Shown in pieces: positions 15,986 through 16,221 of a stretch of DNA of 45,540 nt. The position numbers and the translations under genes were made by a program. Numbering within the stretch: position 1 is the stretch's first letter; each line of letters begins with the position of its first letter. Location of the stretch: IMG/VR virus record IMGVR_UViG_3300018080_000043, positions 1-45,540 of that record. One strand, given 5' to 3'. This DNA is from a virus. A model generated the notes under the pieces. The model had not been told where the DNA came from and made no database searches. It worked only from the letters and a program-made list of their open reading frames with translations.

Positions 15986-16221
15986 CCTAGACCCTGACCA
16001 ACTAACCAAAACTTAGTCGACGGGCGGCCCCGGCCCTGTAAGCTCATGCGAGCGAGCTGATGACAGTCTGCGTCCTGTGGAGTATGTACATCTGGCGTGT
16101 GAGAGAGTCTCTGATGAAAGAGATCCTCAGCAGACTCTCATCAGGAATCTCGCATGAGCTTTCAAGTGAACCCCCTTGGCCGGGCCTCGACTAAGTTTTG
16201 GTTAGTTGGTCAGGGGCTGGG
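15986..16221 (+). ncRNA. Long rod-like inverted repeat, candidate structured RNA or origin
   Basis: A perfect 29-bp stem pairs 15992-16020 with 16187-16215. Beyond an A-G mismatch it extends outward by five pairs. Inward come GGCCCCGGCC/GGCCGGGCC (one bulged C), a 12-bp stem (16041-16052 with 16149-16160), a symmetric 4x4 internal loop, and a 15-position stem with one mismatch (16057-16071 with 16130-16144). A terminal region follows with its own hairpin (16108-16123). No reading frame explains it. It could be transcribed as a rod-shaped RNA, or act as DNA (origin, protein-binding cruciform). Confidence 0.75.

Follow-up and report, generated by a model that had tools for sequence, protein, structure and literature searches.

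A long palindrome at the late/early gene junction of an uncultured tailed-phage family, possibly a replication origin

The window genome

The window, by which is meant the entire stretch of DNA analyzed here, covers an IMG/VR virus record from end to end (45,540 bp). The same 29-bp direct repeat is found at both of its ends (1-29 and 45512-45540), within a TTG-rich repeat tract, so that the record probably represents a near-complete genome of a tailed phage, assembled as a circle. Identical ends of this kind could reflect either circular assembly or terminal redundancy. Genes for TerL, the portal, the major head protein and the terminase small subunit TerS (12603-13316) occupy the minus strand. 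The plus strand encodes a PD-(D/E)XK exonuclease (27047-28075), Sak4, a ParB-nuclease/methyltransferase, a PolA-type polymerase and a DUF3987 primase. A host search with the TerL alignment covered 84,980 species, with one genome per species, and found no relative.

A small PHROG 16527 protein (16915-17262, plus strand) is also present in many otherwise unrelated phage contigs, very large ones included. A DUF7873 protein (21124-21858, plus strand) is recognized by Pfam (E 3e-94) and has no PHROG match. A segment resembling sigma-70 region 4 (residues 883-931, E 2e-6) occurs in a 1797-aa protein encoded at the distal end of the minus-strand genes (36332-41725), an unexpected domain for a protein of that size. 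Imperfect palindromes around TTCACTNAGTGAA are dispersed in the window at 10050, 15701, 18311, 23887 and 39527. Some are followed by a shared leader, those at 18310 and 23886 being 74% similar across 50 nt. They may be promoters or operators of the phage, distinct from the element described next.

A rod-like palindrome among the early genes

The first-pass annotation had claimed a non-coding, rod-like inverted repeat of about 235 nt at 15986-16221, with a perfect 29-bp stem and a setting between two small early genes. This description is borne out, with slightly longer coordinates. The palindrome measures 262 nt (15973-16234), and neither it nor any of its parts is assigned a strand. It is flanked on its late side by a gene for a 58-aa protein (15770-15946) and on its early side by one for a 64-aa protein (16277-16471), both on the plus strand and with no function assigned. 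The rod sits inside the early plus-strand gene series, behind three early genes. Its outer arms (15973-16029 and 16178-16234) are 57 nt long and 89% complementary. They include the perfect 29-bp stem, the left half of which (15992-16020) reads CCCTGACCAACTAACCAAAACTTAGTCGA and pairs with 16187-16215, as judged from the sequence and the fold. Further in, a left inner arm (16037-16071) and a right inner arm (16130-16164), each of 35 nt, are 83% complementary. They enclose a center of 58 nt (16072-16129) that contains a short CT-/GA-rich hairpin.

This palindrome is far above chance expectation. The minimum free energy of the plus strand is -151 to -166 kcal/mol (z -12.2 to -13.2), that of the minus strand is -154.7 (z -12.9), and no shuffled sequence is equally stable. 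With a self-complementarity score of 103, the rod is the strongest palindrome in the genome; the second-best of the window scores 27, and four genome versions generated by an order-2 Markov model score 18-19. When it is compared with its own minus strand by blastn, all 262 nt align at about 70% identity. There is no open reading frame of at least 60 aa inside the rod, and none of at least 35 aa with a ribosome site overlapping it. A tRNA scan found nothing, an Rfam search returned no family at the gathering threshold, and phage records searched with the rod gave short chance matches only. Among the results listed by searches of the open-access literature, there was no description of such an element.

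Equivalent palindromes across the phage family

Relatives were gathered through TerL, and 30 whole contigs were fetched and scanned for self-complementary DNA. All are uncultured tailed-phage genomes represented by metagenomic contigs only, with TerL, portal, capsid, PolA and primase as common genes. Nearly every related contig that spans the late/early junction has an equivalent palindrome, which is usually the dominant one. These palindromes are mostly 100-460 nt long and are located where the late and early genes diverge, between terS and the early exonuclease gene. Scores are clearly above the Markov null in G000, G006, G011, G013, G017-G021, G023, G025-G027, G029 and G030, and also in G012 and G031, where the element sits at the contig end. 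Weaker palindromes occur at the fitting place in G003, G015, G016 and G022. In place of one long rod, two regions (G018:18043-24064 and G030:4015-9491) have several shorter palindromes distributed over the early/late interval.

The position is constant. terS is on the late side of the element, 0.7-4 kb away, in 17 of 17 oriented genome maps, and the conserved exonuclease gene is on its early side, at 2.8-11.5 kb, in all 16 genomes that have one. Homologues of a small early gene of the window (17597-17809, plus strand) are found near the palindrome in L019, L036/G011, L017 and L044/G015, which supports positional homology. Contigs without an element mostly end before the palindrome or inside it; in G007, G009 and G024 the palindrome or its arms are at the ends. 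The closest TerL relatives (L007-L012) stop short of the junction, and L012, over the 6.9 kb upstream, retains mostly late-strand genes. Searches with relatives of the early gene at 14923-15381 and of terS revealed no further loci. Five contigs (G007, G009, G012, G024, and G031) break off at the palindrome or within it. In G007 and G024 the same arm is found at both contig ends, with differences, and the element may thus vary within one population.

What has been conserved at this position? It is not the sequence. Outside low-complexity tracts, arms from distant members do not align with one another, and the window element matches no other member's element, yet each element is complementary to itself. 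The principal reason to regard the palindrome itself as maintained is that complementarity has been kept and sequence has not. The first-pass annotation had made conservation of the paired arms in relatives a test of its proposal, and equivalents at the same genome position do keep complementary arms. On these comparisons, the rod is a non-coding DNA element found family-wide at one genome position, despite complete sequence change.

Centers and iterons

Most of the relatives' palindromes are centered on (TA)n, poly-A/T or CT tracts, and the AT fraction of the center over 60 nt is 0.70-0.97 in most members. The exceptions are the window, G006 and G003, the centers of which are CT-rich with an AT fraction of about 0.50. 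The center of the window rod is nevertheless the positional counterpart of these tracts. Short repeats within the arms are a second recurring feature. Eight members (G023-G027, L064, L078, and L079) carry 6-13 copies of TTATGG/CCATAA per element. Between G023 and G025 three direct copies of GTTATGG, a TA center and three inverted copies (CCATAAC) are all kept, whereas the intervening segments are different. Repeats of other kinds occur in other clades, with periods of 8-14 nt in G011, G006, G029, G003, and G009. Iteron periodicity is significant in these five and in the TTATGG clade. It was not found to be significant in the window element (p 0.2), G017, G019, G020, G031, or G013.

DNA element or functional RNA?

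A functional RNA is expected to favor G.U pairs on its own strand. Isolated mismatches, defined as those in a helix with two Watson-Crick pairs on each side, number 96. They comprise 14 G.T, 14 A.C and 68 others, which is close to random expectation and reveals no wobble preference. The count over whole elements does lean toward G.T over A.C (114 to 78), but includes forced loop pairings. E. coli RNAs used as a control for the wobble test gave a result too small and mixed for full calibration, with G.U at 4 of 6 mismatches in small RNAs and at 3 of 28 in rRNA domains, which were probably misfolded. Fold strength does not single out a strand either, since roughly half of the elements fold better as the terL strand and the remainder as its opposite. 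The first-pass annotation had also suggested a search for covarying homologues. Equivalents with complementary arms exist, but G023 and G025 differ by only 0-2 compensatory pairs. Two other pairs of elements (G026/G027 and G011/L017) are near-identical and too close for compensatory changes, so that classical covariation is not countable.

The absence of a wobble preference and of a consistently favored strand in folding argues for an element that works at the level of DNA and against a functional RNA. A rod-shaped transcript heading the early operon, and acting as a regulator, an RNase III processing site or a decoy, is quite unlikely. Its attractions are a very stable fold on either strand, the place of the window rod within a series of early plus-strand genes and the G.T excess in the whole-element count. 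However, besides the mismatches, for which the control was small and mixed, and the strand data, the absence of an Rfam match, the (TA)n or poly-A/T centers and the iterons kept in G023/G025 do not fit. The first-pass annotation had offered functional RNA or an origin/cruciform as the choices. The former fares poorly, with neither G.U enrichment nor strand bias, and the latter is favored as the more probable of the two.

Other possible functions

The main rival to an origin is a role in packaging or concatemer processing, in which a terminase or a hairpin-/cruciform-cutting phage nuclease would act on the palindrome to start packaging or make genome ends. There is a precedent in the hairpin at T7 concatemer junctions, which has been proposed to act in similar end processing. 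T7 also has a PolA-type polymerase, and its palindrome lies close to packaging functions. The family element resembles it in both respects, being within 4 kb of terS in every mapped genome, and several contigs end at or in the palindrome. However, these contig ends look like assembly breaks at a homopolymer, a difference from the T7 case. Each of G007 and G024 has one arm repeated at its two ends, and the element is read through in other contigs, some of them circular. Moreover, packaging is directional whereas the element is mirror-symmetric, and in three genomes (the window, G013, and G019) terS is separated from the rod by several early genes. A packaging role is unlikely, although it is the strongest of the alternatives. 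A quite improbable one is that the element is a transcription hub, where a phage regulator would bind an operator array that acts bidirectionally on the late and early operons to either side, the symmetry reflecting dimer sites. The location at the early/late divergence and the repeated short sites in several clades would suit such a hub. Against it, the window rod is preceded by three early genes, a sigma-70-like promoter was sought in the rod and none was found, and a separate promoter- or operator-like family (the TTCACTNAGTGAA sites) is present elsewhere, including upstream of the gene at 15770. Operators also have no need of 260 nt of continuous complementarity.

Perhaps the palindrome has no function at all. 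Template switching is able to hold arms complementary without selection, and quasi-palindrome correction of this kind could keep a useless hairpin intact while the arm sequences evolve fast, as they do here. Such a neutral artefact is very improbable, in that there is one dominant copy at one genome position family-wide, with similar size and center, and that the G023/G025 iterons are kept. Two further candidates were rejected. A protelomerase or hairpin-telomere site is at odds with complete palindromes that lie inside contigs, circular ones included, and a mobile palindrome (MITE) with the fixed location of a single dominant copy in each genome.

A possible origin of replication

The best explanation, with about an even chance of being correct, is that the rod is a cis-acting DNA element serving as the replication origin of the genome. 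An origin is favored because putative inverted initiator sites flank a center that may melt, once per genome at the early/late switch, in phages with their own polymerase and primase. The reading also draws on the recurrence of a dominant palindrome at the late/early junction with arms that are unalignable yet self-complementary, on AT-rich centers in most members, on inverted iterons in several clades and on the absence of wobble preference. In the proposed scheme, the arms would carry initiator sites in mirror orientation and the duplex would open at the low-complexity center, possibly as a cruciform. The opened center could then allow loading of the DUF3987 primase/helicase-like protein and the PolA-type polymerase, plausibly in both directions.

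Several observations do not fit so well. The window element has neither significant iteron periodicity nor a DnaA box, its center is not AT-rich, and proximity to terS suits a packaging role too. In addition, no initiator gene was identified beside the rod. Pfam and PHROGs scans of early genes revealed no known initiator among those scanned, most of which are without assigned function. One early protein (25355-25798, plus strand) is common to 17 family genomes, has no Pfam or PHROG match and is a candidate initiator. GC skew had been suggested as a check on origin function. Detrended base-skew minima do lie near the element in most genomes, but they track the transcription switch in those where the two are separable (G000, G013, and G019). 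Because skew follows the transcription switch, it provides no independent support for an origin.

A broader and more tentative proposal, which is possible but doubtful on the sequence comparisons, is that the whole family starts replication at one long, fast-diverging palindrome in which mirror symmetry and a meltable center are conserved rather than sequence. This would imply a new initiator or a start that recognizes structure, such as a cruciform.

Comparison with known origins

How would such an origin compare with those already described? The lambda origin has inverted iterons, bound by the O protein, beside an A+T-rich region (PMC5043065). The family element is similar in that inverted-repeat initiator sites, here putative and present in several clades, adjoin what may be an easily opened region, and in being a single, non-histone-like cis element per genome in the early region. 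Unlike lambda ori, it is one long mirror palindrome with a low-complexity tract at its center, it is not within an initiator gene, and its iterons vary by clade and are not evident in the window. In the PLE satellite origin, RepA_N iterons are present and non-coding, semi-palindromic repeats converge on a poly-A tract (PMC7145576). The likeness is again a non-coding region with semi-palindromic repeats toward a poly-A tract. However, the PLE repeats are short and bound by RepA_N, whereas the family element forms one rod, about 100-460 nt in length, and no RepA_N-like gene was found here. The single-strand origins of rolling-circle plasmids and ICEs (palA type, ICEBs1 sso1) are non-coding imperfect palindromes of similar size in which structure matters more than sequence, but they are orientation-specific on one strand (PMC4595007). 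The family element favors neither strand in folding or wobble, and no rolling-circle initiator was seen.

Implications

The element explains the tendency of assemblies of these genomes to break at one place. If it is an origin, it would offer a sequence-independent way to find origins in a diverse, uncultured phage family. Initiation would then be governed by symmetry or structure, and the initiator would have to be sought among the early genes without assigned function. Whatever its function, a palindrome kept family-wide while its sequence is replaced is a clear experimental target.
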